Of a stretch of DNA of 64,000 nucleotides, positions 28,661 through 47,514 are shown piece by piece (within the stretch, counting starts at the first letter, position 1; every line of letters starts with the position of its first letter). Source of the stretch: Metabacillus litoralis (lineage in GTDB: Bacteria; Bacillota; Bacilli; Bacillales; Bacillaceae); contig NZ_CP033043.1 of assembly GCF_003667825.1 (NCBI RefSeq), positions 3,218,001 through 3,282,000 of the forward strand, in the 5' to 3' direction. The notes under the pieces were generated by a model. The model ran no database searches and was not told where the DNA came from. It saw only the letters and a program-made list of their open reading frames with translations. The position numbers and the translations under genes were made by a program.

Positions 28661-28688
28661 AAAAACAGGTAATCTTTCACCACCTGTC
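28661..28688 (-). terminator. Terminator of the chemosensory operon
   Basis: ACAGGT/ACCTGT stem followed on the minus strand by six T residues, one base after the LuxR-type gene stop codon. It marks the end of the cheW-to-luxR unit. Confidence 0.85.
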
Positions 28689-28689
28689 C

Positions 28690-30762
28690 TTACTCCATTC
28701 CATATTTAATTCGGTAAATCTTAGCCATTGCTTGAACCCGATCCGTAACGTTTAGTTTCTTAAATATATTTGTTATATGGTTTTTCACAGTATGAACACT
28801 TATATTTAAATAGCTGCCCACTTCCTGGTTGTTTAAACCTTCTAGTATTAAAAAAAGAATTTCTTTCTCTCTTGAAGTTAATTTTAATTCTAGAATGACG
28901 CTTTTTATATCAACAAGATCATTAATTTGTTGTTCATCAGCAAGTTCCATTTCCCCTACCTGTTTTAAATTAGATAGGTGATTCAGTTCCATTCTTGCTT
29001 CTAAATCAGGACTTACCTGCTGAATGGCCATTTTCATTTCATCATCAAGAAAAGATAGAGCTAAATTTTTATCTATTCTTTTAACAATTGTCTGGTAAAT
29101 AAATGTTATCATTTTCACTTCTATACTTGTATTCACTTGTTTTGTAGAAACATCCATACACTTTTCTAACAAATGAAGTACTTTTGAATTCTTTAATTTA
29201 CTTTTCAAGAACTCCAAGCGATATGTCATAACCTTACAAGCATTCATAAGTTGTTCCACAGATGTTTCAGGTATTGATAGTGATTGTGAAAGTTGTCTTA
29301 CCATTTTCATCGCTTCTAATGTATTCAAGTAATTTTGTTTATTTAATTCCTCTAAACTAGAGTGAAGTAAATTGATTGTTTCTAAATGGTTATTATCTAG
29401 TAGTTCTTCATCGTTATTTTGCTCTATTTTGATGCACCTAGACAATAACCGAGCAATGATGTGTAGACTCATTGACACTTCTTCATACTTTTTTCTATCC
29501 TTAATTTCTACTGTTAATATACCAATACAATTCTTCTCAACATAGATTGGTTGATGAAAGACCATACTCTGTTCATTTATCCGCTTCAGCTGTTGAAGGT
29601 TGCTTCCTTCACTAATAAGCTCATGGCAAACCTTTTTATGCTCTTCAAGTAGTGGGTCATTCAAAGCACCTCTACTAATTGTTTCCCCATTTTCTACTGT
29701 AAAACTCGAGAAGTTATGATTGTTTATGTTCTGACAAAAATCAAGAACCTTGTACATGATATTTTTAACATCATCTGTATGAAGTGCAACCTCTAACAGG
29801 TCTAATAAACCATAAAAAGCAAGCTGCAGTTGTTTTTCCTGCTGTAGGGCTTCGTCACTTGCTTTCCGTTCTGAGTAGAGATAAACAATAAACTGAAGAA
29901 TATCAAGCAGCTCTTGACTAATCATTCGGTCTTCTGTCGATCCGCCAAACATAAGACCTTCCACAATACCGTTTTTCTTTATAGGAAAAATAAATAATTG
30001 ATTTGGATATAAGTGAAATTGTTGAAAAAAATCACTACGATTTGTAAGGCCCATATCGGACAAAAACATTTTTTCCCCCATAACAACAGCTTTCCCCAAC
30101 AAGCCTTCCCCGATATAAAATGTATTTCCTTTTAATTTTTCAATACTCTGACCTTGTACAGCTTTGATCATAAATTTGGCATGATCTATTTTTTCTGATA
30201 GTCCAATAAAATCTATTCTATTTAATTGGAGAATTTGTGTAAAAAGATGAGATAAAAAGTGGTCATTCTCACTCAAATTCCCTTTTGACTGTCTTAAATG
30301 TGTTAAAATATCAATTACTTTTCTTTGAACTTGGGCTTGTTTTTCATTCTCCTCAAAACTTTTTATCACGAAGGAGATTGAATCTATTTTATTGACTAAC
30401 TCTGTCTTTTCTTCTTGATTTATCGAAGTTATAGAAAGATCTACTAAGTTACTTTCCTTATTTCCTTCCAAAAATGGTCCTGCCACAAGTATATAGTTTG
30501 CTTTGGTAGAAGAAATAACTGGGGATAAGATAAACTTTAAATTTAATGTTTCTTCACTCCAAGAAAAAATAGTTGATTTCGAAATCAACTGTCCTGTGTT
30601 AATTATTTCTTTTTGAAAAGAATCAACATCGCTAACTTTATAGAATGGTGTTTCATCTACTCTGTTCACTGACATCAAAATTTGCCCGTCCTGATCAATA
30701 ACGGATATCGGAAATCCACTGGATGTGGAGAATATTTGCAATAAATTTTTGAACATATTCAT
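28690..30762 (-). CDS. LuxR-type transcriptional activator with sensory domains
   Basis: 690 residues. The N-terminal part resembles a PAS/PocR-like sensor (SGFPISVIDQDGQI), followed by at least one GAF domain (about 155-310) and a second sensor-like region (about 345-450), a helical linker, and a C-terminal LuxR helix-turn-helix (about 625-688: LTSREKEILFLILEGLNNQE, then SVHTVKNHITNIFKKLNV). No receiver domain, so it is not a classical response regulator. An upstream TTG (30780) is in frame, but GGGG lies between, so the ATG at 30762 is chosen. It is the last gene of the che operon, after a STAS gene, and is the only DNA-binding protein there, so it is a candidate output (inference). Confidence 0.85.
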   Translation of the reverse strand: MNMFKNLLQIFSTSSGFPISVIDQDGQILMSVNRVDETPFYKVSDVDSFQKEIINTGQLISKSTIFSWSEETLNLKFILSPVISSTKANYILVAGPFLEGNKESNLVDLSITSINQEEKTELVNKIDSISFVIKSFEENEKQAQVQRKVIDILTHLRQSKGNLSENDHFLSHLFTQILQLNRIDFIGLSEKIDHAKFMIKAVQGQSIEKLKGNTFYIGEGLLGKAVVMGEKMFLSDMGLTNRSDFFQQFHLYPNQLFIFPIKKNGIVEGLMFGGSTEDRMISQELLDILQFIVYLYSERKASDEALQQEKQLQLAFYGLLDLLEVALHTDDVKNIMYKVLDFCQNINNHNFSSFTVENGETISRGALNDPLLEEHKKVCHELISEGSNLQQLKRINEQSMVFHQPIYVEKNCIGILTVEIKDRKKYEEVSMSLHIIARLLSRCIKIEQNNDEELLDNNHLETINLLHSSLEELNKQNYLNTLEAMKMVRQLSQSLSIPETSVEQLMNACKVMTYRLEFLKSKLKNSKVLHLLEKCMDVSTKQVNTSIEVKMITFIYQTIVKRIDKNLALSFLDDEMKMAIQQVSPDLEARMELNHLSNLKQVGEMELADEQQINDLVDIKSVILELKLTSREKEILFLILEGLNNQEVGSYLNISVHTVKNHITNIFKKLNVTDRVQAMAKIYRIKYGME

Positions 30763-30858
30763 TTTACCAACCCCCAACAAAACACAACTCTCTACTATAT
30801 ATTTCGGTAAAAAACATCCTTTTCTTGATGGTAATTCTAACCACTTTATTTATATTGG

Positions 30859-31200
30859 CTATATTAATGATTGAAAATAATTTTCCGCCTCTTCTAGTGT
30901 TTTGTATAACCCCATAAAAGTATGAAATCTTACAATAGTAAAAATCTCATCCAATGGGGGATTTACACCTGATATAACTAACTCTTTTCCTTCTTTTTTT
31001 GCCTTTATCGCTGCATCCGCAATAACACCTAATGAAGTGCTATTTAAGTATTTTACGTTTTCTAAATCCAAGATAACATGCTGACGTGATTTTAATAAAT
31101 GTGCTTGGATATCCTCTTTAAATGATTCATTATTCTTAATTGTAATTTCGGTATCCTTAACTTTTAAGATATCCACGAGTTCTTTATGAATTAACTCCAC
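30859..31200 (-). CDS. STAS-domain anti-sigma-factor antagonist-like protein
   Basis: 113 residues, one STAS domain. The switch region VILDLENVKYLNSTSLGVIA corresponds to the DSSGLG phosphorylation loop of SpoIIAA/RsbV, with N-S-T-S replacing D-S-S-G. Ser can still be phosphorylated but the Asp is gone. Start is uncertain: GTG at 31200 follows GAAAGG by 9 bases, while upstream TTG (31239) and ATG (31209) have poor ribosome sites. Located between cheB and the LuxR-type gene. It could be the target of one of the two HATPase kinases encoded upstream (inference). Confidence 0.8.
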   Translation of the reverse strand: MELIHKELVDILKVKDTEITIKNNESFKEDIQAHLLKSRQHVILDLENVKYLNSTSLGVIADAAIKAKKEGKELVISGVNPPLDEIFTIVRFHTFMGLYKTLEEAENYFQSLI

Positions 31201-31242
31201 AATGACCATCCTTTCTTTATTAGTTGCTATTTCTACCAATAT

Positions 31243-32280
31243 TTACAACAATGCATGTCTTATTTTATCGTACATTTTAAACAATGGAGCCTGTTCATCT
31301 GATAATCCAGCTTCATCAATCACTTTTGGCATACCATAGACAACACATGTTTCTTTTGATTCAGTAAGGACTAGTCCTCCTAGTTGTTTCACCTTCCGAC
31401 AACCGCGCAACCCATCATCACCCATTCCAGTCAAAATGACAGCGAGCAATCGTTCTTTGTATAGATGAGCAGCTGATAATAATGTAACATCTACAGAAGG
31501 CTTATATAATGTTTCCATACCTGCTGAAATCTTTAATTTTATTTGATATAAGTTTCTTTCATTTTTATAAATTGTTGTCTGTAGCCCCGCAGGAGCAATG
31601 TATACTGTACCAGGCTTAAGTATTTCATTATGCTCTGCCTCTTTTACCTTAAGGTGACATAATGAATCAAAACGATCTGCCAAAGGCTTCGTAAAGCCTG
31701 GTGGCATATGTTGAACAACCACAATAGGAAGGTGAAAATCAGACGGAAATTTCGTTAGTATCGTTTGTAATGCTGACGGTCCTCCTGTGGAAGTACCAAT
31801 AAAAAGAAGGTCTTTGCTCATTTCGATCATTTCTTCTATGTGCACTTTATTGTCTGGAACAACTTCTTCCTTTTGTATCAGGACTGGTAACTTCGCTGAA
31901 ACTGCTACAAGTAATCTTTGATAAAAATCGTCAAGAAATTCAGAAGATGTATGATTAACTAGTACCTCTTTTATAACAAAATCTACAGCTCCTAATTCAA
32001 AGGCTTCAAGTGTAGAATCTGCCCCATTGCTTAGCATTACAACTGGTACTGGATTTTCATTCATTAATCTTCGTAGCGTTTGAAGTCCATCCAATTCCGG
32101 CATTTCAATATCGAGTGTTACAATAGAAGGCTTTAGCTGCTTTACCTTTTCGATTGCATCCAACCCGTTTCTTGCTCTTCCAATGACAAAAAAATCAGGG
32201 CTTGCCTCTATTAAAGTGGAAATAGTTTTCCTCATAAAAGCAGAATCATCCACAACTAACACTCCATATTTCCCATCCAT
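31243..32280 (-). CDS. cheB: CheB receptor methylesterase/glutamine deamidase
   Basis: 345 residues: receiver domain (VLVVDDSAFMRK, phospho-Asp in VTLDIEMPELDG, K in DFVIKE) followed by the methylesterase domain with catalytic Ser in GTSTGGPSAL, His in VVQHMPPGFTKP and Asp in TGMGDDGLRG. It removes methyl groups from receptor Glu residues to reset adaptation and is activated by CheA phosphotransfer. The ATG at 32280 lies 7 bases after AAAGGGG; the 17-codon upstream extension overlaps cheR and is discarded. It follows cheR by 4 bases. Confidence 0.95.
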   Translation of the reverse strand: MDGKYGVLVVDDSAFMRKTISTLIEASPDFFVIGRARNGLDAIEKVKQLKPSIVTLDIEMPELDGLQTLRRLMNENPVPVVMLSNGADSTLEAFELGAVDFVIKEVLVNHTSSEFLDDFYQRLLVAVSAKLPVLIQKEEVVPDNKVHIEEMIEMSKDLLFIGTSTGGPSALQTILTKFPSDFHLPIVVVQHMPPGFTKPLADRFDSLCHLKVKEAEHNEILKPGTVYIAPAGLQTTIYKNERNLYQIKLKISAGMETLYKPSVDVTLLSAAHLYKERLLAVILTGMGDDGLRGCRKVKQLGGLVLTESKETCVVYGMPKVIDEAGLSDEQAPLFKMYDKIRHALL

Positions 32281-32284
32281 TTTG

Positions 32285-33091
32285 TTACCCCTTTCGATAG
32301 TAGAAGGTCCCATCTGTACTGATTGTCTCAAAACCTATCCCCATTGTAGATATGTTTTCTGCATGACCTAGAAAGAGAAATCCTCCTTTTTTAAGTGAGT
32401 GATAAAATGAGGTTGCCACCTTTTTAACCGTTTCAGCATCAAAATAAATTAAAACGTTCCGGCAAAATATAACGTCATACGAACCTTCATTTCTCATATT
32501 TTCTTCATCAAGTAGATTTAAGTACTTAAAAGTGATCATATCTTTTATGTCCTTTTTCACACTATAATGAGTTTCAGTTTCTTCAAAATAGGTGTCAAGC
32601 CATCTTTGAGGAATCCGTCTAAAGGATAGTGATTTTTTATGGTACATTCCGTTAGTGGCTGTTTGTAGAACCTTTTTATTTATATCTGTTGCTGTGATCG
32701 TGACCCTATCCTCTACTGAAATACCGAGCTCTTTTAACATCATTGCAAGAGAATACGGTTCTTCCCCTGTGGAGCAGGCAGCACTCCAAATTTTTATTGG
32801 TTGTTCAAGTACTCTTTCTTTTTTCAGTATTGGTATTACTTTATTTTGGAAAACATGGAGCTGTTTATCTTCACGATAAAAATAAGTTTCATTAATCGTT
32901 AACAGTTCTACAAGAATATCCCACTCTTTAGGGGTTTCCTCTAAAAGACGCATGTAACTCCATAATGTTACATTTAATTCTTCGAGCCGTTTTGAAATTT
33001 TTGCTTCTAAAGAAGAAATATTATTCAAGTAATTTAATCCACAATACTCATAAACTAATTGAGCTAATTGCTTTAGCGCAAAATTTTCCAT
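32285..33091 (-). CDS. cheR: CheR receptor methyltransferase
   Basis: 268 residues. N-terminal helical domain plus SAM-binding domain: WSAACSTGEEPYSLAM (motif I), TATDINKKVL, YDVIFCRNVLIYFD and the C-terminal GGFLFLGHAEN are diagnostic of CheR. It methylates Glu residues of chemoreceptors using S-adenosylmethionine. ATG start preceded by AAGGGAG. It is separated from the giant receptor gene by 115 bases containing a long hairpin, and followed by cheB. Confidence 0.95.
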   Translation of the reverse strand: MENFALKQLAQLVYEYCGLNYLNNISSLEAKISKRLEELNVTLWSYMRLLEETPKEWDILVELLTINETYFYREDKQLHVFQNKVIPILKKERVLEQPIKIWSAACSTGEEPYSLAMMLKELGISVEDRVTITATDINKKVLQTATNGMYHKKSLSFRRIPQRWLDTYFEETETHYSVKKDIKDMITFKYLNLLDEENMRNEGSYDVIFCRNVLIYFDAETVKKVATSFYHSLKKGGFLFLGHAENISTMGIGFETISTDGTFYYRKG

Positions 33092-33133
33092 AGTGAGTAT
33101 CTCCCTTTTCCTAATCTATTGATGCATAAATAG

Positions 33134-33199
33134 TATGAAGGGTCAGACACTTTTAAACAGTGTGATAGAATATATTCAACTGTAAGATCTGACCCTTAT
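33134..33199 (-). other. Long hairpin between giant receptor and cheR
   Basis: On the minus strand AAGGGTCAGA pairs with TCTGACCCTT, with additional internal pairing (ACAGT/ACTGT). No T-run follows, so it is more likely an mRNA processing or stability element that uncouples receptor and cheR expression than a terminator. Confidence 0.5.
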
Positions 33200-33206
33200 T
33201 TTACTA

Positions 33207-36200
33207 TTAGTTTACTGACTGAAGTGTACGTTGCATGTCCTTGTTCGTATCCTTGATGGTTGATGATAGTCTTGTTACTCCATCAATATCTTTCGCACTT
33301 TGCTTAAACATAGCACTAGTTTCATTCATTACTTTTTCTAGCTCAAGAATTTCATTTAATTGTAGCTTTGTTGCTTCAGTTATTTCTTCAGATTGATTTT
33401 TAACAGCCTGAATAAGCTTTACAACATCATCACTTTCTGTAGTCAATCCTTTTGTTTCTGTCGTAACAATTGTCATTTGATCCGCGATATTGGCAATACT
33501 CTTTGTAATGTCTTTGATCAGTGCCGTTTGCTCTGATGTTGATTGGGTCACAAGTTCAGCTTGATTTGTGACATCACTTGTAATTGAAACAATTGATCTA
33601 GTTTGTTTTGTTTGCTCTTCAATTGCTGAAGTAATTTGGAGCATTTGCTCTTTTGCAGATCGGATATCATTTGTAATTTCTTCAGCTCCACCTGCTTGTT
33701 CAATCGTAGCATTTGTGACCATTTCTGCTTGATTTGCCATAGATTGAGCAGATTGCACTACGCTTTCCGCTTGTTTTGCTTGTTCAACCGTTGCAACTGT
33801 TACTTGTCTTACTTGTTCACGGGCTTCTACAACACCTGTGATAATTTCTTCTACTCCTGTTACTTGTTCTTTTACTGATTCTGTTACTTGATTTGCTTGG
33901 TTCGTAATGGATTCAACTGCATTTACAACATCTTGTGCTTTTTTCGCTTGCTCATCAGTTGCTAACGTGATTTGTCTCACCTGTTCACGGGCATTCGTTA
34001 CACCTTTAATGATCTCTGTTACACCAGCTTTTTGCTCAATCATTGCTGTTGTAACTTGCTCAGCTTGATTTGTAACATTTGCCATTGCTTTTACCATCTC
34101 TTCAGATTGCTTTGTTTGTTCAACTGTAGCTGTAGTAATCTGCTTCACTTGCTCACGAGCATTGAGCACACTTTTGATAATATCTTCTACTCCAGCAGCT
34201 TGTTCTTTCATTGAATCTGTTACTTGTTTTGTTTGCTCAACCATACTACTAACTTCAGTAATAATCATTTGAGATTGTTTTGCTTGTTCCTCTGTTGCTA
34301 CTGTAATCTGCCTTACTTGCTCTCTTGAATTACGAACACCCTCGATTATTTCATCCACAGCAATAGCTTGCTCATTCGTTGCATTTGTCACAAGCTCAGC
34401 CTGCTTTGTAACATTCGCAACCGATTTTACAATGCTTTGAGACTGCTGTGCTTGCTCTTCCGTTGCTGTTGTGATTTGCTTTACTTGCTCACGTGCGTTA
34501 ACAACACTGTTAATAATTTCAGTTACTCCTGCTGCTTGTTCTTTTATTGCTTGAGTAACTTGTTCAACTTGATTTGTCATACTTTCTATTGAGCCAACAA
34601 TATGTTGAGATTGCTTCGCTTGTTCTGATGTTGCATCTGTAATTTGTCTTACTTGGTTTCTTGCATTCAGAACACCTTTAATAATTTCTTCCACTCCAGC
34701 TGTTTGTTCAACCGTTGCTTTTGTTACTAAATCTGCTTGTGTTGTTACATTTTCAACAGATTTTACGATATCCTGTGCTTGTACAGCTTGCTGAGTAGTT
34801 GCAGTGGTAATTTGAGAAATTTCTGTAGTAATATTTTCAACACCATCTACAATTCGAATAATGGCATCACTAGCACTGTCTGATAGCTTATAGCCCTGTT
34901 CAACTTTTTCTTCACCAATTTCAATTGCCTTTATCGCATCAGACGTTTCACCTTGAATACCTTTAATTAACGTAGCAATCTCCTTTGTCGCGGATGCCGT
35001 TCTTTCTGCTAGCTTACGAACTTCATCTGCTACAACACTAAACCCTTTTCCATGCTCACCAGCTCTAGCTGCTTCAATCGCAGCATTTAACGCAAGTAGA
35101 TTTGTTTGCTCTGCAATATCATCTATCACTTCAATAATGCTACCAATTTCATCTGAGCTTTTTCCTAAACTTTGCATAACCGTAGAAGCTTGCTTAACAA
35201 CTATTCCAATTTCTTTCATCCCATCGACTGATTGTAAAACGGCATCACGACCATTTTGTGCTTCATGTGCTACGTTTACTGTTAGTGAATTAACATTTTC
35301 AGCATTTGCTGCCACTTGTTCAATAGAGGCAGCCATTTCTTGAATAGACTGATTTGTTTCTTTTGCCGAACTTGTTAAGCTTTCTGCATTTACGGAAACG
35401 CCTTTTATTGATTTACCCATTTGCTCAATAGAGGCAGATACTTGCTCAACAGAGCTTGCTGTACTTTGTGCATTTCCTGCTACCTGTTGTATTGACGCTG
35501 CAAGCTCTTGGATAGAAGCTGCTGACTCCTCAGCTGATTTATTCAAGCTTTCTGCATTCACTGAAACACCTTGTACTTGACTACCCATTTCTTCAATAGC
35601 TGCAGATACTTCCTCAACAGCCATTGCTGTACTTCTTGAATTACCAGCCACTTGTTCGATCGACGCGGCCATCTCCTGAATTGCATCATTTGTTTCTTTT
35701 GCTGAATTTGTTAAGCTAACTGCATTTGCTGCCACACCTTTAACCGAATCACCGATTTGCTCAATTGAAACAGAAACTTGCTCAACAGAACTTGCTGCGC
35801 TTTGTGAATTCCCTGAAACTTGTTGAACAGATGCAGCCATTTCTTGAATAGAAGCACTAGTAGAATCAACTGAAACTGCTAAAACTTCAGCATTTTGATT
35901 AACTCCTTTAATTTGACTACCCATTTCCTCGATCGCAGCTGACACTTCTTCAACTGATGCAGAAGTACTTTCTGCATTTTTTGACATCTGCAGAGTGGAT
36001 GCAGCCATTTCTTGGAGTCCATCATTTGTTTGTTTAGCTGAGTCTGTTAAACTAACAGCATTATTCGCCACTTGCTCAATTGAAACAGCCATCTCTTCTA
36101 TTGCTGCGGATACTTCTTCAACAGAATTTGATGTACTGCGTGTATTCCCAGCAACTTGTTGAATAGATGCAGCTAGTTCTTGAATTGCCGCAGTCGTATC

Positions 36201-36929
36201 TGTAGCAGACAATGTTAAGCTTTCTGCGTTTGCTTCAACACCTTTAATTGATTTCCCCATTTGCTCGATTGAAACGGAAATTTGTTCTACAGAAGCTGCT
36301 GTTTTCTCAGAATTCCCCGATACTTGCTGAATAGATGCTGCTAATTCTTGAATAGCCTCACTCGTGCTTTTTGCAGAATCAGTTAGACTTTCAGCATTTG
36401 TTGCAACTCCTACAATCGATTTGCTCATTTGTTCCATCGATGCTGAAACATTTTCAATAGATTTTGATGTTTCAACTGAATTTCCTGATACTTGTTCAAC
36501 TGATGCAGCAATTTCCTGGATAGAGTGTGATGCATCTTTTGCAGATCCTGTTAGTATATTTGCATTTTGTGCAACTGCGGTAATTTGGCTAGCCATTTCT
36601 TCCATTGCAGCAGTAATTTCATTTAGTGATTTTGAGCTGCTTGTTACATTATGATCCAAACCTTTGATTGAATGAAGAATACCTTCTAATGAAGAAAAAG
36701 ATTTTGCAGTAGACTTTCTTAGGTTTTCTGCATTTGAAACAACACCATTTATTGATCTAGAAATCGTCGACATCATGTTCCCTGTTTGATTTAAAGATGC
36801 TGCCTGTTGATCGTTTCCGGTTGAAATTTGTGTCATAACATTATTTAATTGAATAATATCTTGCTCTAAATTTGACGATACTCTCGTTAGTTGCTCCATA
36901 GGTACTTTTGTTTTTTTAAAGAAACTCAT
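33207..36929 (-). CDS. Giant soluble chemoreceptor built of 56-residue repeats
   Basis: 1240 residues, no membrane segment, sensor domain or HAMP visible. The canonical signalling tip [20 protein letters not shown] (about 606-625) lies at the exact midpoint. The N-terminal arm has about eight 56-residue repeats ([10 protein letters not shown] ... [11 protein letters not shown] ... [12 protein letters not shown]), and the C-terminal arm about seven 56-residue repeats ([10 protein letters not shown] ... REQVRQIT ... EQAKQSQ). 56 residues are eight heptads, so both arms can zip as an antiparallel coiled coil about 85 heptads long. ATG at 36929 after AGGAGG; an upstream TTG is discarded. It sits between cheA and cheR, so it is surely the partner of this CheA. 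Soluble receptors signal from the cytoplasm; what it senses is unknown. Confidence 0.92.
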
Positions 36930-36975
36930 AGCCAAAGGCCTCCTAGTCGTTTAATAGATTCTTACTTTTTGTCAT

Positions 36976-39534: not shown

Positions 39535-39554
39535 ATTGACCTCCTTATAACGTT

Positions 39555-39995
39555 CTATGAGTGCTCATATAGAACTTTCTCTAAATGAAGAATCCCAATA
39601 ACTTGCTCATTAAGCTTTGCAAAGCCAGTAAAGATATCTTCATCTACTTTCAAACCAGGTGGGGGTTCTACGTTTTCCTCTTCAAATTTCGTCACCATTC
39701 TTACTTCATCGACCATTAATCCTATGTTTTCATTTTTGCCTTGAACAATAACAATCCGATTTTTTTTGTTTCTTTCTGAAATTGGTAATTCAAAACGCTT
39801 ATGAATACTAACAACCGGAATAATGCTTCCGCGTAAGTTAATAACTCCTTCAATCATTTCATTAATTCCAGGAATGCTTGTAATGGCTGGAACTCGTAGA
39901 ATTTCAACCACTTCTTCTATGGATAATGAATAAAGTTGTTGATTTACGGAAAATACGACAAATTGAACCTTGCCTATGTCAGAAGCAACCGCCAA
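39555..39995 (-). CDS. cheW: CheW adaptor
   Basis: 146 residues, a single CheW domain: KVQFVVFSVNQQLYSLSIEE, EGVINLRGSIIPVVSIHKRF and GLMVDEVRMV. It links receptors to CheA. TTG start 8 bases after AAGGAGG. First gene after a 362-base gap that contains the terminator of the cheX-cheY unit, so a promoter for cheW-cheA-receptor-cheR-cheB-STAS-luxR is expected in that gap. Confidence 0.95.
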   Translation of the reverse strand: MAVASDIGKVQFVVFSVNQQLYSLSIEEVVEILRVPAITSIPGINEMIEGVINLRGSIIPVVSIHKRFELPISERNKKNRIVIVQGKNENIGLMVDEVRMVTKFEEENVEPPPGLKVDEDIFTGFAKLNEQVIGILHLEKVLYEHS

Positions 39996-40312
39996 ATTGA
40001 TCGCCTCCTTGTATTTATTTGATAGCCTTATTGTGAGGGATGTATTAGATTATGAGTATTGGAGTGGATTCCTATTTTTCTACAAAAGTCGACATGCTTA
40101 TATAGGATTTGAGACCTATTAAAGGATCAAGAATATAGTTTCAAAGTTTCACTCTTTCATTTTATAGGAATTGTTTCCTGTATTTTTATAGGATTATCTA
40201 TCTAAAACTTATTTTTACGCCAAATGTGATTGAGGATTATACGTTGGAGACTAAAACTCAAATTTAGGGAGGTTATGAAAAACACCAACATCATATAATT
40301 CTTTTCTAACAG
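39996..40312. promoter_or_regulatory. Leader region of the cheW-cheA operon
   Basis: About 317 bases without a convincing gene between the cheXY terminator and cheW. A promoter must lie here, but no clear sigma-A or sigma-D element stood out. Repeated TCCTATA/CCTATAAA words occur several times on the minus strand (about 40060-40200) without a recognised role. Confidence 0.35.
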
Positions 40313-40345
40313 AAAAAAGCCAGACCCAAAGGGTATGGCTTTTTC
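40313..40345 (-). terminator. Terminator of cheX-cheY
   Basis: On the minus strand AAAAAGCCA pairs with TGGCTTTTTT with a 13-base loop; located 13 bases after the cheY stop codon. Confidence 0.88.
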
Positions 40346-40357
40346 TACGTCCGTATA

Positions 40358-40717
40358 TTAGGAACAAAATTTCTGAAGTGCTTCTGTAATTCGATCTGGA
40401 GAAAATGGTTTCACTAAGAAATCTTTTGCTCCTGCTTGAATTGCCTCAACAACCATTTGCTGCTGTCCCATTGCCGAGCACATGATTACTGTTGCATTTG
40501 GGTCAAAAGCTTTAATTTCGCGAACAGCTTGGACTCCATCCATAACAGGCATTGTGATATCCATAGTCACTAAGTCCGGCTTAAGATCTTTATATTTTTG
40601 TACAGCTACTTCACCGTTTTCAGCTTCACCAACTACTTCATGTCCTGCTTTTGTGATCATATCTTTTAGCTGCATTCTCATGAATGCTGCATCATCTGTT
40701 ACTAGTATTCTTGCCAT
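40358..40717 (-). CDS. cheY: CheY response regulator
   Basis: 119 residues, a lone receiver domain highly like Bacillus CheY: acidic pair D8-D9, phospho-Asp53 in VTMDITMPVMDG, Thr/Ser switch in IMCSAMGQQ and Lys in FLVKPF. Phosphorylated by CheA it would act on the flagellar switch or another target. Co-directional with and 28 bases after cheX, ended by its own terminator, so cheX and cheY form a short transcription unit within the locus. Confidence 0.95.
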   Translation of the reverse strand: MARILVTDDAAFMRMQLKDMITKAGHEVVGEAENGEVAVQKYKDLKPDLVTMDITMPVMDGVQAVREIKAFDPNATVIMCSAMGQQQMVVEAIQAGAKDFLVKPFSPDRITEALQKFCS

Positions 40718-40745
40718 TTGTCTTGCCCCTTCCTTTAAAGCAGCC

Positions 40746-41198
40746 TTAGTCTAACATTAAGCCAACTGCTAATTTGTTACCATTTTGAAATGTTACCTCT
40801 ACTTCTATTGCTTCTCTAAATCCCGAAAGTGTTGAATTTCCGTCCATAATGGTTGGAGCGGTAATGTCAATGGTCACACCTTTTGAAAAAATATGCGTAC
40901 AGAGCCCGCCAGATAGCATATTCCCTAGTTCACCAGAAAAAGATTTTAACATTTCACCCTCTAGTGCCATTCCAAACATTACTTCTCCAATTGAGCCAAA
41001 AACATCAGCATCTGCTTTATACAGGATTTTTCCCTTAACAGACCCTGTTACCCCAACAAGAACTCCATATTGTAAGGATAATTCTTTTTGCACGATAGGT
41101 ACTGAAACATCTTCATATGGAATAGGAACAATCTGTTTAATCGAGTCGAGTATTCCTTCCTGTAAGTCTTCTAATGTTGATGATACAGTCGTACTCAA
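40746..41198 (-). CDS. cheX: CheX-like CheY-phosphate phosphatase
   Basis: 150 residues. The CheC/CheX/FliY phosphatase signature lies in SFSGELGNMLSGGLCTHIF (Glu and Asn of ExxN), with GSVKGKILYKAD before it and a C-terminal NGNKLAVGLML strand, matching CheX. It dephosphorylates CheY. The start is TTG at 41198, 6-7 bases after GGAGGTG; a GTG at 41234 is discarded because that ribosome site lies inside its frame. It is paired with cheY, making a kinase-independent off switch for the signal. Confidence 0.85.
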   Translation of the reverse strand: MSTTVSSTLEDLQEGILDSIKQIVPIPYEDVSVPIVQKELSLQYGVLVGVTGSVKGKILYKADADVFGSIGEVMFGMALEGEMLKSFSGELGNMLSGGLCTHIFSKGVTIDITAPTIMDGNSTLSGFREAIEVEVTFQNGNKLAVGLMLD

Positions 41199-41297
41199 TA
41201 AAAACACCTCCTGTTTATTGGTTGTTGGTCTCACTATTAATTTTTTATTCTATTAACTGGTATACTTAAATTATATCTAAGACTTTTTTCTTATTAT

Positions 41298-41326
41298 ATA
41301 GTACATCATTCCTAGGAATGGCTCAA
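41298..41326 (-). promoter_or_regulatory. Sigma-A promoter of cheX-cheY
   Basis: -35 TTGAGC (41321-41326) and -10 TACTAT (41298-41303) on the minus strand, spacer exactly 17 bases, about 100 bases before the cheX start. Confidence 0.5.
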
Positions 41327-41366
41327 TAATAAGGTGGAGTTATTGTAGAAATTTGCGGATTTTTAT

Positions 41367-41402
41367 TAAAAAAATTGCGCCCGAAAATTTGGACGCAATT
41401 TT
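41367..41402 (-). terminator. Terminator after the second partner-switching triad
   Basis: ATTGCG(TCC) pairs with (GGG)CGCAAT and is followed by seven T residues on the minus strand, directly after the STAS gene stop codon. Confidence 0.9.
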
Positions 41403-41408
41403 ATATGA

Positions 41409-41684
41409 TTACTTTAAGTTAAAAAGTGTATTAAGCTTTGTGATATGTAACAGTTTTTGAACTTTATCATTTGCATTTAATAGTTCCATTTTCTTTTTCT
41501 GTGCATTTGCCACTTCATAGACGGAAACAAAAATAGAAATACCAATACTGTCTACATAGTCGACATTTTTCAAATCAATTAGTAAACCTTGCTTACTCTT
41601 ATTCAATGTATCGAGCAGAGCAGTTAATATCTTTTGATTATTCCTGAAATTCAATTCTGAATGTTCAATATAAAATGTGTCCAT
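41409..41684 (-). CDS. STAS-domain antagonist, second triad
   Basis: 91 residues, one STAS domain. The switch loop LKNVDYVDSIGISIFVSVYE keeps Asp-Ser-x-Gly, where Ser is the expected phosphorylation site. The ATG at 41684 lies 5 bases after AAGGAAGG; a 13-codon extension overlapping the phosphatase gene is discarded. It follows the PAS-LOV-PP2C gene by 11 bases and completes a phosphatase-kinase-antagonist set with the HATPase gene at 43163. Confidence 0.87.
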   Translation of the reverse strand: MDTFYIEHSELNFRNNQKILTALLDTLNKSKQGLLIDLKNVDYVDSIGISIFVSVYEVANAQKKKMELLNANDKVQKLLHITKLNTLFNLK

Positions 41685-41695
41685 AACAACCTTCC

Positions 41696-43159
41696 TTATG
41701 ATAATTTTACATAAATAAAGCAAACATCATCTTCATGTTCCGTTAACATTAGGCGTTTTTTTATTTTATCTAAATTCTTACGTTCAATAAACTCAGCGGA
41801 AAAACCGCTTCCATTTTCCGCTAGGATTTCATTCATTCCATCAGTATGCAGAAACAGTTCACTATTTGATTGATAATATATGGTGCTCATCCTAAAATCA
41901 TAGTTCTTTAGAATGCCTACTGGAATAGAAGTAGAATCGAACAATTTCACAGTATGTTCATTTTTCAAATAAAAATCGGGATGACCTGCATTTATATAAT
42001 CAATTCTTCTTTTTTTAGTATCTATCAAAAGGTAGATACATGTAAAGTAAAATTTTCCAAATTCTTCATTCTTTTCTAAAAACAAGCTAATTTGATGATG
42101 ATTCAATTTCGCTAAGACCTCTTTAGGATCTATTATCTGCTGCTCAAGGAGAAAGTTTATTTCTGCGTTAATAGACATTGTAATTAGAGACGGCGCTATT
42201 CCATGTCCCATTACATCCATGATCATCACGACATATTGATCCTCATTTATCTGATGCCATTTGTAATAATCCCCTCCTAATTTATTAGAAGGACGATAAA
42301 AGCCCTCAATTTCAATTAGATTGTTCGTTAAAGGGTGACTAAGGAGCATTTGCTGCAAATTTCTCGCTAAACTTAAATCAATAGAAATATCTAGCTCCAT
42401 CATTTTTCTTTTTGTTATATCAACTTGTATACCAATAAAGTGAGTAAGCTCCTCATTTGGTGAAAAAACTGGACTAATCGTTAGTTCATTCCAAAAGGTT
42501 GAGCCATCTTTTCGGTAATTAAGAATTTCGCAGTGAATTTCCTTCTTCTTTTCAACCGCTTCTCTTAGACTAGATATCGTATGTTCACTAGTTTCCGGTC
42601 CTTGGAGAAATCGGCAGTTTTGACCGATTATTTCTTCACTTCTATAACCTGTTATCTCCTGAAAAGATTTGTTTGCAAAGATAATAGGATTATCATGCTG
42701 ATTAGGGTCCGTTATAATGATTCCAACACCTGTTTGATGAACAGCCTCCGCTAATAGAAAATTTTGTTCCCGCAATTGCTTTTTTTCATTCCTCAAGGCC
42801 ATTAGATTTCCAACATCTTTTAGGACAAACCATATGTATTCCTTTGAATCATGTATGATTGTATCAAACCAGAAGCTGTAATAATGCTTTTTTGAATTAC
42901 TTGAGATGGCTGTGATGATCATATCCTTATGAATATCACCAGCCTGCATCATTGGGTACTGTTCTTTTAACAATTGAAGGGATTTTTCCGTTAGAAAGTG
43001 AAACTCCGAGTAATGTTTACCTGTAAAATCATCTTGATGGTAGCCCAAAACATTTTGAGCTTTTTCATTAACGTAAACATATCTCCCCTTTTTATCCATG
43101 ACAAAAACGATCTCAGGGTAATGTTTAAATAGTTTCTCGAAAATAGTTTGTTCCTTCAT
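41696..43159 (-). CDS. PAS-LOV-PP2C (SpoIIE-type) phosphatase, predicted blue-light sensor
   Basis: 487 residues. PAS domain (about 8-120), then a LOV domain (about 135-250), then a SpoIIE/RsbU PP2C phosphatase (about 265-487). LOV hallmarks: GQNCRFLQG (179-187) with the photoreactive Cys182, N163 in FANKSF, N224 in FWNEL and the flavin-contact Gln245 in GIQVDIT. Phosphatase metal sites: LGGDYYKW, DVMGHGIAPS, NAGHPD, HTDGMNE and EDDVCF are all intact. Such phosphatases dephosphorylate STAS antagonists. It is 11 bases from a STAS gene and 3 bases from a HATPase kinase gene. Blue-light control of the phosphatase is inferred from the conserved residues. Confidence 0.9.
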   Translation of the reverse strand: MKEQTIFEKLFKHYPEIVFVMDKKGRYVYVNEKAQNVLGYHQDDFTGKHYSEFHFLTEKSLQLLKEQYPMMQAGDIHKDMIITAISSNSKKHYYSFWFDTIIHDSKEYIWFVLKDVGNLMALRNEKKQLREQNFLLAEAVHQTGVGIIITDPNQHDNPIIFANKSFQEITGYRSEEIIGQNCRFLQGPETSEHTISSLREAVEKKKEIHCEILNYRKDGSTFWNELTISPVFSPNEELTHFIGIQVDITKRKMMELDISIDLSLARNLQQMLLSHPLTNNLIEIEGFYRPSNKLGGDYYKWHQINEDQYVVMIMDVMGHGIAPSLITMSINAEINFLLEQQIIDPKEVLAKLNHHQISLFLEKNEEFGKFYFTCIYLLIDTKKRRIDYINAGHPDFYLKNEHTVKLFDSTSIPVGILKNYDFRMSTIYYQSNSELFLHTDGMNEILAENGSGFSAEFIERKNLDKIKKRLMLTEHEDDVCFIYVKLS

Positions 43160-43162
43160 TTG

Positions 43163-43576
43163 TTAGCCCTTATCCAGGTGATAGGCCAAAGAAACTTTAC
43201 GTCCGTTATCGGAATAGCTTATCATATCTGAACATTTTTTCATGATGGCTATTCCTCTGCCTCTAATACTTCTAATATTATTTTCAAAATACTGATCAGG
43301 ATTACCGATATGTTCTAACTTTTCTTTATAATCAAATCCTTCTCCTTTATGATCACATTCAACAGAGAAACATTTTTCTTTCACTTCTAAATTTAAAGTT
43401 ATTGGAATAGCTTGGTTTTCTTTCGTTCCATGCTCTAACGCATTGTTAACTGCTTCCATAATTGAAAAAATAATCACTGTTTTTTTTGCCCTTGCACATT
43501 TTTCAATAAATGCCTCGATGTCAGGCAAGCTTTGCTGAAATTGGTCGTGATCAGTAAAAACAAATGATTTTTTCAT
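43163..43576 (-). CDS. RsbW-like HATPase (anti-sigma/serine kinase type), second triad
   Basis: 137 residues, a single HATPase_c fold without HisKA. N box EAVNNALEHG, G1-like DHKGEGFDY and G2 IRGRGIAIMKK are those of the RsbW/SpoIIAB/BtrW serine-kinase family. It is expected to phosphorylate the Ser of the STAS protein encoded at 41409. No sigma factor gene is adjacent, so its other partner is unknown. ATG after AGGGG. Confidence 0.87.
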   Translation of the reverse strand: MKKSFVFTDHDQFQQSLPDIEAFIEKCARAKKTVIIFSIMEAVNNALEHGTKENQAIPITLNLEVKEKCFSVECDHKGEGFDYKEKLEHIGNPDQYFENNIRSIRGRGIAIMKKCSDMISYSDNGRKVSLAYHLDKG

Positions 43577-43684
43577 AAAATAATCCCCTAGTATCGTTTA
43601 TTTTCTCTGGTAAGATATGTTTATTTTTTAAAAACAGTTTTTCCTAATTTCTTGTAAGTATGCAGAAATAGCATTATGTAGGAA

Positions 43685-43714
43685 AGCACGATACTTAGTT
43701 TCAAGTATCGTGCT
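43685..43714 (-). terminator. Terminator after the membrane receptor
   Basis: AGCACGATACTT pairs perfectly with AAGTATCGTGCT across AGTTTC, right after the receptor stop codon. It splits the locus after the first triad plus receptor. Confidence 0.85.
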
Positions 43715-43720
43715 TCTATT

Positions 43721-45412
43721 TTACAATTTAAAGACTGTAAGCTCTTGCTTTAATTGTTCAGCCATCTTTGCTAGCTCTCTTGCGCTTTCTGACACTTCCT
43801 CTATCGTCGCGCTTTGCTCTTCAGTGGACGCTGCAGCTTCCTCAGATAAAGCTGCTGATGCTTCAATCACTTCTGTAACCTTTTCAATTGACTCAAGAAC
43901 AGAGCTTGTATAATTTCTTAGTTCTGAAAAGATGTTTTTCACCTGTGAAACTCCTTGCTCCGTTTCCTGTACATTGGATACTATTCTATGAAGAGATTCT
44001 CCACCTTTTTCGATTAATCCGACCTGTTCTTTTACGGAGACAAGATTTGTTTCCATTGTATTTACAGTCACTTTTGTTTCTGACTGAATATCTTCAATTA
44101 GTGTTGTAATTTGGTTAGCTGCGTTATTCGATTGCTCTGCAAGCTTACGAACTTCATCTGCTACAACAGCAAATCCCTTCCCATTTTCACCGGCTCTTGC
44201 CGCTTCGATCGCAGCATTCAATGCTAGTAAGTTTGTTTGATTAGATATGTCTGAAATCACTGTAATAATACTACCAATTTCCTCAGAACGTTTACCAAGC
44301 TTTTGGATGGATTCTGTAGCAAATTCAACAGTATTCGTTACTTTCCCAAGATGCTGTATCGCTTCATTGATTGCCATATTTCCTTGACCAGCTTCTGTTG
44401 TTGAACGCTTTGCCAATTCGAGAGTTCCATCAATAATTTGACCGCCCACTTCAACATGACTTGCTGTTTCTTTCATTCTATCTAATATATTATTAGCTTC
44501 AGAGGATTGCTTCGAAACTCCTGCTGCAATTTCTGTTGTTGTACTAGCAATTTGAGAACTCATTTCCCCTGTTACGTCTGCACTTGCTGATAACTCCTCT
44601 GAAGTTGCTGCTGTTTGATCAGCTGTTTCAATCACCTTTGCGATAAGGTTCTTCAGATTCGTTTTCATTAGATTGATTGATTGTGATAACTCACCAATTT
44701 CATCGTTCAGTTTAGTGTTAATTTCATTACCGGTTAAGTCACCATCAGCAATTTGCTTAGAAAGTACAGTCATTTTTTGTAATGGTTGAATTTGACGATG
44801 AATCACCCACCACATAATAAGAGCAATAACGATTAATGCAACGACCCCCTCAACCAATAGTTGAAATTGAAAGTTAGAGGTCATTGTTTCGTAAGCTTCA
44901 GTAGAATGACCAACAAAAAACATTCCAATGATTTCGCCTGCAGAATTTTTAATAGGTTCATAAACAGTAACTAAATTTTTCCCGACTACATTAGCTTCTC
45001 CGATATATGTTTCACCTTTGGCTAATGTCACAGCAGCAACAGCATCTGAAACCTTTGTTCCAACTGCTCTCTCTCCAGCTTCATTTTTAACATTTGTGGT
45101 AACCCTTGTATCTCCTTGGAAGACCGTCACAGCATTACTAGTTAGTTCACCAATGGAATCTACAATCTCTTCGTTATCGTTTACCTTTGTATCGCCTTTA
45201 TATAGCTCATCACCTTTTAATGTCCATTCACCAGGGTATTGTTGATCGATTAGTCCTTTTGCTACTTTTAAATCAGTATCTAAATTCTCTTCAGCAAGAT
45301 CTAGTACTTCTTTTTTAACCGTATAAACAGATTGAAAGATTAAGATTGACGTGCCAATAAGGAAAAGAATGAGAAACCAAAGAGTTAACTTTCCTTTTAC
45401 ACCTAATTTCAT
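43721..45412 (-). CDS. Membrane chemoreceptor with single-Cache sensor
   Basis: 563 residues. TM1 (about 12-34), an extracellular region of about 150 residues of sCache_3 type (ending [18 protein letters not shown]), TM2 (about 190-210), HAMP, and signalling hairpin with tip [18 protein letters not shown] near residue 405. The start ATG overlaps the stop of the preceding STAS gene (ATGA); an upstream 17-codon extension is discarded. It is translationally coupled to a STAS antagonist, which is not the usual place for a receptor. Confidence 0.92.
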
Positions 45413-45774
45413 AGCTCTCTTCCTTCCTTTACTTTTCTTTGCGCTTCTTCTAAACTCGAACAAATAATAAATAACTTATTTAGCTTAGCAATCGTAAATA
45501 GCTCTCGAATAAAGCTGTTTTCAATAATTAAAAAGGTCGTTTTATCAGAATCGATGTAATTCAAGAAGGTAATAAATAACCCCATGCCGGTACTATCAAC
45601 CATTTTTACAGCTGTAAGGTCGAATACATAGTTTGTGGCTTCTGGATTGATTTTTTCAAGGATAGCTTCCTTCGATTCCTGCGTATTTCCATATGTTAGT
45701 TTTCCTGATAACCTGAAAAGCTGATATTCTTTTGTTTGTTCCATTTCTATTGTTTCATTTCTAGTTTCGTCCAA
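45409..45774 (-). CDS. STAS-domain antagonist, first triad
   Basis: 121 residues, one STAS domain with [20 protein letters not shown] holding the Asp-Ser-Thr-Gly switch loop. TTG start 8 bases after AAAGGGG; an ATG ten codons later is possible. It begins 1 base after the HATPase gene and its stop overlaps the receptor start. With the GAF-PP2C phosphatase and the HATPase upstream it forms the first partner-switching triad. Confidence 0.88.
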
Positions 45775-45775
45775 T

Positions 45776-46195
45776 TTAGGTGCCCCTTTCTTTCTTAACT
45801 AAAACCGTAAATAGACCATCTTCATCATTTTGATGAAAAGAGATACTGTCTACTAGCTCTCTTACCATAAGCAGTCCCCGTCCACGTTCCTGTAAAAGGA
45901 TATCTTCAAGCTCATGAGTAAAGACTTCACCTTTCACGCCACCACATTCATCAGTTATATGGATGATGTACTCTGAATGAGTCATTTCAACATGTGCATA
46001 AATAGAATAAAGTGATGACGGAGCAGAAAAGGTTTTCACCGTTGCTTCAAAAGAATTTATTAGTAGTTCATGAGCAATAAAGCAAATATGGTCTCTTACA
46101 GAACATTGATAAAGTGATAGTTGCTCCCTAATTTTTTGCTCTAGTTTCTCAATTTCATTTAAATCACATGGAATTTTAACATTTAACGTAAACAT
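45776..46195 (-). CDS. RsbW-like HATPase (serine kinase/anti-sigma type), first triad
   Basis: 139 residues, a single HATPase_c domain. N box HELLINSFEA, G1-like TDECGGVKG and G2 QERGRGLLMVREL match the RsbW/SpoIIAB family. Predicted to phosphorylate the STAS protein at 45409 and to be held or released according to the phosphatase at 46208. It begins 12 bases after the phosphatase gene. Confidence 0.87.
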   Translation of the reverse strand: MFTLNVKIPCDLNEIEKLEQKIREQLSLYQCSVRDHICFIAHELLINSFEATVKTFSAPSSLYSIYAHVEMTHSEYIIHITDECGGVKGEVFTHELEDILLQERGRGLLMVRELVDSISFHQNDEDGLFTVLVKKERGT

Positions 46196-46207
46196 AAATA
46201 CCCCACA

Positions 46208-47407
46208 TTATTTAACCGAAATTGATACCGCACAAATATCGTCGTTTAATGTTTTTAATCGACTTACTTGGTCCTTCAGCAACGGAATGATGGATACTTG
46301 ATTGCTAACATACTCTTTATATCGATCCATTAATGCTAAAATAAGTTGCTGCGAATCGTTTTTTTCGATTAAATGATCAAGTACTCCATCCGAGTAAAGG
46401 AGAATTTCACATGGATTTTGATAGGTTACACTCGCTTCTACATAGGGTAACTCATCCAATATTCCTAATGGTACGCCACCTTCCTCCAACATCTCAGAAG
46501 TTCCGTTATGATTGACTAGCATTCCTGCGGGGTGTCCGGCATTATAATACTTAATCACATTGTTGTTCGTATCAATTACTAGATAAATACCTGTTATAAA
46601 GGTGGTAACCTTGGAATTATTCTGAAACCACTCTTTTATTAAACGATTTAACTCACACATTACTTCATAAGGAGAGTTCACATCATTTACAATATTTTTT
46701 AAAATAGGTGTAATCGCCATTCCAATCATTGCAGATGAAACTCCATGTCCCATAACATCCAGGACAATCGCTGTGTACACACCATCCTTTACTTTACACC
46801 ATCGGCATAAATCTCCCGATAAATGGGAGGAAGGAGTGTAAAGGAAATCAATCTCTATCCGTTCATCATCTATTTTTTCACTTAAAAAAGAAGTTTGAAT
46901 GTTCTTCGCTAACTGCAGCTCTAGTGTTATTTGTTCTTCATATTGTTTTAGCTTTGAATATGCCTCTTCCAGACTAATGGTATTACTGATAAAGCTTGCA
47001 TACATCTCCAAAACAGAGATGTCCTTTTCACTTAAACTATTAGGAAGGGGATCTAGGGCACATAATGTTCCAAATACGGATCCATCTTGCATGTAAATCG
47101 GCACTCCTGCATATGATCCAATTGAAAAGGCATCTGTTACAGCCATACTTTTAAACGGCTCTTTATTTTCTGCATCTTTTACTAATAAAGGTTTTTTATT
47201 GTTAGCCACAATATGGCAGTACGACATTTCGACTGGTTCGTCCACATGACGAGGAATTGGACATCCGCCTTCCAGATTGAATTTTTCTAGTATTTTAAAT
47301 CGGTTATTTCTAGTAGATGCGACAAAAAATGAACGAGCCGTTATCGTTTTACTCATTAATTGCATGACGTTTAAAGCAGCTTGTTCAAACTTTTTTAATT
47401 TACTCAT
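46208..47407 (-). CDS. GAF-PP2C (SpoIIE-type) phosphatase, first triad
   Basis: 399 residues. GAF sensor (about 1-155; SYAGVPIYMQDGSVFGTLCA), coiled-coil linker (about 158-178), and SpoIIE/RsbU phosphatase (about 185-399) with metal-site motifs SGDLCRW, LDVMGHGVSSAM, NAGHPAGM, YSDGVLDH and NDDICAV, all intact. Expected to dephosphorylate the STAS antagonist two genes downstream when its GAF ligand is bound. First gene of the locus: ATG after AAGGGAG, with a promoter region containing sigma-A-like and sigma-D-like elements. Confidence 0.9.
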   Translation of the reverse strand: MSKLKKFEQAALNVMQLMSKTITARSFFVASTRNNRFKILEKFNLEGGCPIPRHVDEPVEMSYCHIVANNKKPLLVKDAENKEPFKSMAVTDAFSIGSYAGVPIYMQDGSVFGTLCALDPLPNSLSEKDISVLEMYASFISNTISLEEAYSKLKQYEEQITLELQLAKNIQTSFLSEKIDDERIEIDFLYTPSSHLSGDLCRWCKVKDGVYTAIVLDVMGHGVSSAMIGMAITPILKNIVNDVNSPYEVMCELNRLIKEWFQNNSKVTTFITGIYLVIDTNNNVIKYYNAGHPAGMLVNHNGTSEMLEEGGVPLGILDELPYVEASVTYQNPCEILLYSDGVLDHLIEKNDSQQLILALMDRYKEYVSNQVSIIPLLKDQVSRLKTLNDDICAVSISVK

Positions 47408-47475
47408 AGATCTCCCTTATTCCTGTGGATTTTACATGCTGTTTACTAAGATAACAATAAAGAGTCTTTCTTCTT

Positions 47476-47502
47476 ATATCGACATAATTCTACATTTTTT
47501 TA
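47476..47502 (-). promoter_or_regulatory. Sigma-D-type promoter of the chemosensory/partner-switch locus
   Basis: On the minus strand TAAA (47499-47502), exactly 15 bases, then GTCGATAT (47476-47483), a 7/8 match to the -10 consensus GCCGATAT. About 70 bases before the first gene. Confidence 0.6.
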
Positions 47503-47514
47503 TGTTTTTGTCAA
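47487..47514 (-). promoter_or_regulatory. Overlapping sigma-A promoter
   Basis: TTGACA (47509-47514), 16-base spacer and TAGAAT (47487-47492) on the minus strand, interleaved with the sigma-D elements. Confidence 0.5.

Follow-up and report, generated by a model that had tools for sequence, protein, structure and literature searches.

Chemosensory genes linked to partner-switch genes around a fused CheA-CheW in Bacillales

A 64,000-nucleotide stretch of Metabacillus litoralis (contig NZ_CP033043.1, positions 3,218,001 to 3,282,000; hereafter the window) carries on its minus strand, at 28690-47407, 16 protein genes in which a chemosensory core stands beside partner-switch genes, two signaling families that are usually handled as separate. 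The set of CheW, a CheA with an extra C-terminal CheW domain (fused CheA), a receptor and, in most cases, a STAS protein recurs as a system in Bacillus-like bacteria. Our best explanation, which we hold tentatively, is that it forms a second chemosensory system, distinct from the one presumed to be flagellar, in which a partner switch is coupled to the kinase array and a STAS protein would tune the CheA array. The existence of a CheA clade that mostly keeps both components across relatives of Bacillus, Lysinibacillus and Paenibacillus makes STAS gating of CheA testable in soil bacteria that are not pathogens.

Conservation of the cluster

Among 31 distinct loci encoding a fused CheA (fused loci), counted on the same strand within 10 kb, CheW and a receptor are always present, and a STAS protein is found in 23, a HATPase in 18, a LuxR-type regulator in 18, a PP2C phosphatase in 15, CheR in 12 and CheB in 12. 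STAS, HATPase and PP2C occur together in 14 loci, and 8 have none of the three. In contrast, 84 loci with a non-fused CheA contain no STAS, HATPase or PP2C gene and only two LuxR genes. Since this control set is mostly clostridial, 20 Bacillales loci with an ordinary CheA were added, and the counts for STAS, HATPase, PP2C and LuxR were all zero. The difference in STAS linkage between fused and non-fused loci (Fisher p = 9e-18) should be read with the shared descent of the fused loci in mind, because related loci are not independent events. Detection relied on small profiles built from the window and its relatives, with several matches cross-checked with Pfam. The 84 loci, the shortest of 11.5 kb and 12 of them under 15 kb, were tallied from 88 fetched; L194, L205, L207 and L208 were dropped for want of a CheA frame that passed.

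Chance clustering of che and switch genes is ruled out by these controls (0/84 and 0/20 versus 23/31). At least five same-strand orders of the switch genes were seen (HATPase-STAS-PP2C, STAS-HATPase-PP2C, STAS-PP2C-HATPase, HATPase-STAS-EAL and HATPase-STAS-LuxR), and such varied orders argue that the linkage is kept by selection. A first-pass annotation of the window had proposed that the locus joins partner-switching and chemosensory logic, a proposal to be given up if homologous loci did not keep the genes together. For the core this objection fails, with STAS beside CheW, fused CheA and receptor in 23/31 loci and in several orders; the two full upstream PP2C-HATPase-STAS modules and cheX, however, were seen in 3/31 loci only, all of one genus. 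The minimal form of the cluster, in L122 and L123, consists of cheW, cheA-cheW, a gene for a methyl-accepting chemotaxis protein (MCP), HATPase, STAS and PAS-PP2C. In these two loci, no LuxR, CheY or cyclic di-GMP (c-di-GMP) gene turned up in the profile scan as another possible STAS target.

Other genes adjoin some clusters. In L063, genes that look by eye like nosD, nosL and nosY lie 3' of the PP2C gene, and L065 and L067 have genes of similar size in the same order. Genes resembling, also by eye, a resistance-nodulation-division (RND) pump and a membrane-fusion protein adjoin the cluster at L066:11978-16368 and L122:1-4234.

The fused CheA clade

With the extra CheW domain removed, the 31 fused CheA cores form one clade in a tree with 46 other CheAs (support 0.979; all trees reported here are single FastTree runs). 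Its nearest non-fused relatives, L127 and L128, are 48% identical, and in L128 a GGDEF-EAL gene lies directly 3' of cheA. The phospho-histidine motif is kept in 30/31 fused CheAs, the exception being split (L149). A protein search on the extra CheW part returned 59 clusters, each of which has CheA kinase domains, and 58 also carry P2 and Hpt; we take the named clusters to be all Bacillales in the broad sense.

The long CheA with its extra CheW is sparsely distributed. It occurs in 3/80 genomes of the family, all of one genus, in 10/397 genomes drawn from the order (13 places), in 7/398 of the class and in 2/398 of the phylum, counts that each include the genome studied here and in which one class genome (G518) figures twice. 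Scanning genome contigs, in which the best 80 of at least 586 matches gave 12 fused loci, revealed carriers such as Halalkalibacter wakoensis, Bacillus wudalianchiensis, Ureibacillus thermosphaericus, Caryophanon latum, Schinkia azotoformans, Lysinibacillus antri, three Paenibacillus and one Cohnella. L150 and L153, taken as repeats of L121 and L066, added nothing to the count.

Organization of the window locus

The order of the 16 genes given by the first-pass annotation is the order of transcription, and Pfam confirmed every family. The features, all on the minus strand, are as follows.

46208..47407, minus: GAF-PP2C phosphatase, unit 1 (Pfam SpoIIE, 117.7 bits, and GAF)
45776..46195, minus: small HATPase 1, switch kinase (Pfam HATPase_c_2; N-box Glu/Asn and GRG present)
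45409..45774, minus: STAS protein 1, DSTGMG site (Pfam STAS)
43721..45412, minus: membrane receptor, sCache_3-HAMP-MCPsignal (Pfam); its start ATG shares ATGA with the STAS 1 stop
43684..43715, minus: terminator-like hairpin after the membrane receptor (folding versus shuffles)
43163..43576, minus: small HATPase 2, weakly RsbW-like, far under model cut-offs (Pfam and family models)
41696..43159, minus: PAS-LOV-PP2C phosphatase (Pfam, YtvA family model, LOV motif)
41409..41723, minus: STAS protein 2, DSIGIS site (Pfam STAS)
41365..41406, minus: terminator-like hairpin after STAS 2 (folding versus shuffles)
41299..41314, minus: weaker operator-like site upstream of cheX, 9.7 bits (matrix scan)
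40746..41234, minus: CheX-type CheY-P phosphatase (Pfam CheX)
40358..40717, minus: CheY-type single receiver (Pfam receiver)
40305..40355, minus: terminator-like hairpin after cheY (folding versus shuffles)
40164..40181, minus: second candidate operator upstream of cheW (matrix scan)
40058..40075, minus: candidate LuxR operator, about 80 bases upstream of cheW (matrix and half-site scan)
39555..39995, minus: CheW (Pfam)
36976..39534, minus: CheA, P1-P2-P3-P4-P5 plus extra C-terminal CheW domain, which defines the fused clade (Pfam)
33207..36929, minus: giant sensor-less cytoplasmic receptor, 1242 amino acids, hairpin tip near residue 627, 56-residue repeats (Pfam MCP)
32285..33091, minus: CheR methyltransferase (Pfam)
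31243..32331, minus: CheB methylesterase with receiver (Pfam)
30859..31239, minus: STAS protein 3, NSTSLG site, directly after cheB, conserved with the CheA core (Pfam, tree)
28690..30756, minus: LuxR-type regulator, long N-terminal part, GerE-type helix-turn-helix (Pfam)
28655..28695, minus: terminator-like hairpin after LuxR (folding versus shuffles)

Each of the four hairpins folded better than all 200 of its shuffles (0/200 as well). Because these strong terminator-like structures follow the membrane receptor, STAS 2, cheY and LuxR, the locus probably comprises four co-directional transcription units and not the one operon originally described. This layout suggests that GAF-PP2C, HATPase 1, STAS 1 and the sCache receptor make up unit 1; HATPase 2, PAS-LOV-PP2C and STAS 2, unit 2; cheX and cheY, unit 3; and cheW, cheA-cheW, the giant receptor, cheR, cheB, STAS 3 and LuxR, unit 4. 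Upstream of the units, sigma-D promoter searches returned loose matches only, with up to three mismatches, and the sigma-B pattern had no match. An inverted repeat, AAGGGTCAGA...TCTGACCCTT, occupies the gap between the giant receptor gene and cheR (33092-33206).

Other first-pass statements agree with our scans: the ATGA overlap of STAS 1 and receptor is real in the sequence, none of the 25 sigma-70 region-2 matches of the genome falls in the window, and no flagellar family appears among the 17 proteins scanned with Pfam. The genome (5.23 Mb, one contig) encodes a single other CheA, at 900787-902811, which is 40% identical, lies beside cheB and cheW, and is presumed to be the flagellar one. 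A non-flagellar target of the system described here is plausible. Its CheA retains the phospho-histidine and the P2 domain, so it may still have a CheY-type output, even a flagellar one.

Conserved and local switch proteins

The three STAS proteins of the window differ in their relationships. STAS 3 clusters with the STAS proteins of other fused loci, and STAS 1 and STAS 2 cluster, on long branches, with SpoIIAA and RsbV, in trees of small proteins with modest support, the STAS tree being computed without RsbS. HATPases 1 and 2 fall on very long branches outside the conserved HATPase group and not near RsbW or SpoIIAB. Units 1 and 2 are complete only in the window, G054 and G067 (3/31 loci; upstream DNA is missing for L060 and short for L149), and cheX was likewise seen in three loci, the window and two close relatives. 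Outside these, GAF-PP2C has no full-length relative among the 31 loci, and the sCache receptor has no close relative, the best matches reaching at most 39% identity. With so few occurrences, and with STAS and HATPase proteins outside the conserved groups, the two upstream modules look like a local addition, and STAS 3 looks like the conserved link.

It is thus possible, and about as credible to us as STAS tuning of the array, that units 1 and 2 are an independent light/ligand switch inserted beside the chemosensory core in one small lineage, a proposal compatible with the other readings of unit 4. Their own terminators and the lack of any operator upstream of either unit (2.1 and 2.7 bits) fit such an insertion. 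However, a relative of the LOV-motif PP2C (39% over 473 amino acids) lies directly upstream of cheW in H. wakoensis (L147), and units 1 and 2 could stand in for the usual STAS 3 HATPase, which is absent from the window. The LOV part scores 184 bits against the YtvA family model, under its cut-off of 250, and contains GxNCRFL, which we take to be the flavin-cysteine motif of LOV photoreceptors.

Catalytic motifs are largely intact across the family. Of the 32 STAS proteins listed, 30 have a serine at the presumed phosphorylation position, and the Glu-Asn motif of the HATPases is visible in 19/21 (not in the stretch inspected for L069 and L155) and GRG in 21/21. The window itself has PP2C, HATPase and a STAS protein with a phosphorylatable serine, the HATPase and PP2C belonging to the upstream modules and not to STAS 3. 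Both STAS exceptions are second copies upstream of LuxR (L065:5948-6289 and L067:13839-14180), in which Glu replaces the presumed phospho-serine, as a phospho-mimic would. A receiver domain ahead of PP2C as a direct link to CheA was considered and rejected, since the PP2Cs examined by eye or with Pfam have PAS domains; the short PP2C of L062 has about 16 residues ahead of its PP2C domain.

A recurrent palindrome upstream of the che core

The half-site TAGGAA, which resembles GerE sites, lies 77-94 bases upstream of cheW in all 13 loci that encode a giant receptor, and a further half-site lies at 157-189 bases in eight of them. Both strands of 18 upstream regions contain 33 half-sites versus 4.8 expected, near-copies L058 and L059 included. 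An operator matrix draws on 19 such sites, from 13 loci that for this reason are not independent tests of it. Where a full LuxR gene is present, 15 of 18 loci have a site of at least 12 bits ahead of a che-core gene (the misses being L069, L070 and L126); shuffled sequence gave 0.0067 per 330-base region, each locus having several such regions. Eight LuxR loci are outside the matrix set and are not near-copies of the window; six reach 12 bits, a count in which L124 and L125 belong to one genus and L154 lies near L155 in the CheA tree. At L124, L125 and the three named Paenibacillus loci, it is found in the gap that separates LuxR from the first che gene.

The recurrence of this operator ahead of the che core points to LuxR as a probable controller of the che genes, and a role as regulator of the array genes is the most likely one, instead of the output role that it had been assigned at first. 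A feedback loop would make LuxR regulator and output alike. The operator offers a direct way to approach the timing of the system's expression. Pfam found PocR or GAF in the N-terminal part of some LuxR relatives but not in that of the window; a LuxR homologue search yielded two proteins among the 8000 candidates scored.

Beyond the che core, MCP loci were scanned (33 matches, 30 fetched, 25 with enough upstream DNA): one of the 25 reached at least 14 bits (0.04 expected) and three at least 11 bits (0.57 expected). In the own genome, near 1197114 (L282), adjacent operator-like sites of 14.0 and 12.6 bits lie upstream of a dCache-GGDEF gene, and near 4642552 (L280/L336) a 16.2-bit site lies 66 bases upstream of a receptor gene; having been found by searching, both are candidates only. 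Another receptor gene of the window (3843-5552) has a weaker site of 11.4 bits, 78 bases upstream. In all three carriers (L272 near 3849513, L304 and L305), a 20.3-bit candidate site sits between divergent genes about 110 bases upstream of basal-body rod (Pfam) genes, presumably of the flhO type. A perfect site upstream of a thiL-like gene, named by eye, is shared by the three carriers and a non-carrier, which speaks against every such site being LuxR's.

A giant receptor of nearly fixed length

Fused loci come in two subtypes. Thirteen encode a giant receptor, accompanied by CheR and CheB in 12 (L149 is cut); the other 18 encode ordinary receptors of 515-553 amino acids, each with at least two hydrophobic segments, and have CheR/CheB in none. 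Pfam found no sensor domain in the giant receptor, and a simple scan of the window, L058-L062, L069 and L121 found no hydrophobic segment. A heptad period of 3.5 marks all eight 140-residue blocks tested in the window protein, and prolines in the 13 giants are confined to the first 13 residues (counted from the aligned start in L061) or the last few. The N arm measures 625-626 residues in 11/13 giants, L061 deviating through an extended start call and L069 having 513; the C arm measures 612-616 residues in 12 giants (that of L149 ends with its contig) and 501 in L069. Homologues 48-97% identical to the window receptor have no internal gap other than a single-residue insertion in L121 and small end differences. 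From these features, the giant receptor is predicted to be a helical hairpin that lacks a sensor domain, has arms of about 625 residues each and hardly varies in length.

Helices rise 0.15 nm per residue, which would make each arm about 93 nm long. Internal repeats have a period of 56 residues (eight heptads), and L069, with 112 residues fewer in the N arm and 114 fewer at the C-terminal end, therefore has two repeats fewer in each arm. As a rule, receptor hairpins gain or lose length in both arms alike; an arm length near-constant down to 48% identity, with one homologue two repeats shorter on both sides, offers a test of this rule. The literature searched yielded nothing on giant receptors. 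The 37 matches listed by a homologue search were all of 711-840 amino acids, none giant; since other receptors took up all the candidate places, this result has no bearing on the spread of giants. Like the MCP length classes named in PMC6943060 (24H to 64H), the giant has an MCP hairpin with a conserved tip, but with about 177 heptads in all (1242/7) it is far longer than 64H, the longest class named there, and has no sensor domain or predicted membrane span.

Possible mechanism and alternatives

In the mechanism that we infer, every protein contact, the direction of signaling, the binding of the palindrome by LuxR and the final output are proposed from components, intact motifs, conserved linkage and a recurrent palindrome that are seen directly. 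Receptors would activate the CheA-CheW array. A small HATPase would phosphorylate the STAS 3 serine, and a PAS-, LOV- or GAF-PP2C would remove the phosphate in response to redox state, light or small ligands. Unphosphorylated STAS would then bind the array or CheA and shift phosphotransfer, as CheS does in Sinorhizobium. The CheA phosphate would pass to a CheY-type receiver, here cheY with its phosphatase cheX, and elsewhere to receivers of c-di-GMP enzymes or to a CheY encoded outside the locus, and LuxR would set the amount of array via the palindrome upstream of the che core. Tuning of the CheA array by STAS is proposed mainly because the minimal cluster offers STAS no other target visible in our scan.

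Several observations weigh against this explanation. The c-di-GMP enzymes beside some clusters, and LuxR itself, are competing STAS targets. The eight loci without STAS, HATPase and PP2C (L149 among them cut by the contig end) imply that an array does not need the switch to exist. The conserved HATPase type is absent from the window, where two unrelated HATPases stand in for it, and STAS 3 looks much like an ordinary anti-anti-sigma factor, TM1442 and SpoIIAA being the relatives of known structure nearest to it. As for LuxR, an operator-like site also occurs in 6/13 loci without a full LuxR (L062, L068, L122, L147, L148 and L149), of which L062, L147, L148 and L149 have fetched DNA that stops where a LuxR gene could follow. 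Genome-wide, the operator pattern is not enriched over control in the own genome (26/26 versus 19/20), G054 (23/15 versus 21/18), G067 (20/20 versus 25/22) or non-carrier G062 (22/24 versus 34/30); a large LuxR regulon was accordingly rejected on the three carriers and G062.

The main competing explanation makes the switch an output arm beside the array: unphosphorylated STAS would bind a c-di-GMP enzyme or LuxR, and CheA would reach the same target via a receiver. It gains from c-di-GMP enzyme genes on the same strand within 10 kb in 5/31 fused loci (L064, L068, L069, L071 and L147) and at the edge of L148, among them a receiver-GGDEF-EAL gene between STAS and HATPase in L069 and a receiver-HD-GYP gene in L071. 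The two operator-like sites at the dCache-GGDEF gene point the same way, and so does Pseudomonas, where PMC5085249 places the HsbA partner switch in the HptB cascade, with which the diguanylate cyclase HsbD intersects. However, 26/31 loci have no such gene within 10 kb, the minimal L122 and L123 lack both LuxR and c-di-GMP genes, and the GGDEF-gene site has no counterpart in the G054 and G067 lists at up to one mismatch. We therefore consider an output arm rather less probable than STAS tuning of the array.

More doubtful is that the switch proteins act on SigB or another sigma factor whose gene lies elsewhere, with adjacency to che genes reflecting a shared signal only. Their catalytic motifs look canonical, HATPase 2 is weakly RsbW-like, and in Bacillus subtilis PAS-PP2C and LOV proteins act on SigB. 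On the other side, the window has no sigma gene and HATPases 1 and 2 are not close to RsbW or SpoIIAB. Moreover, sigma, HATPase and STAS matches cluster near 4.385 Mb (PP2C also) and near 2.312 Mb, where we presume seemingly complete SigB and SigF switches. The RsbR/RsbS/RsbT-RsbU-RsbV-RsbW-SigB set is absent from the locus, a lookalike set, by the names we assume, lying about 1.1 Mb off. We hence regard a distant sigma factor as improbable.

STAS tuning of the CheA array remains our preferred explanation. A more specific version, in which the serine-phosphorylation switch gates the array directly (light, redox or ligand to CheA via STAS) and the sensor-less hairpin of fixed length, about 90 nm, serves as a spacer or ruler to another structure, appears unlikely to us, somewhat less so than a distant sigma factor.

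Relation to known systems

Among the matches listed in searches of open-licence PMC full texts (subscription journals being outside this scope), none describes a Bacillales cluster of CheA and partner switch. Sensor methylation feeding a partner switch recalls the RsbK-RsbM-SigB system of Bacillus cereus, which is described as a hybrid kinase that has no CheA array and acts on SigB (PMC4574943). The RsbU/RsbW/RsbV switch shares PP2C, HATPase and STAS with intact motifs, but here no sigma factor is adjacent and the genes are linked to CheA, CheW and receptor. CheAs with two CheW domains are, according to PMC10782961, almost all of class F5, with some F1 and one F10; the fused CheA shares the second CheW domain with these but belongs to a Bacillales clade linked to partner-switch genes, and the word STAS is absent from the main text of that article. 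A comparable protein in a che cluster is CheS, an alphaproteobacterial STAS-only protein that binds CheA and makes a sink receiver more efficient (PMC12654446, PMC4214558). Both systems encode a single STAS domain in a che cluster, but in Bacillales it usually comes with a HATPase kinase and a PP2C phosphatase, and its binding to CheA is putative.

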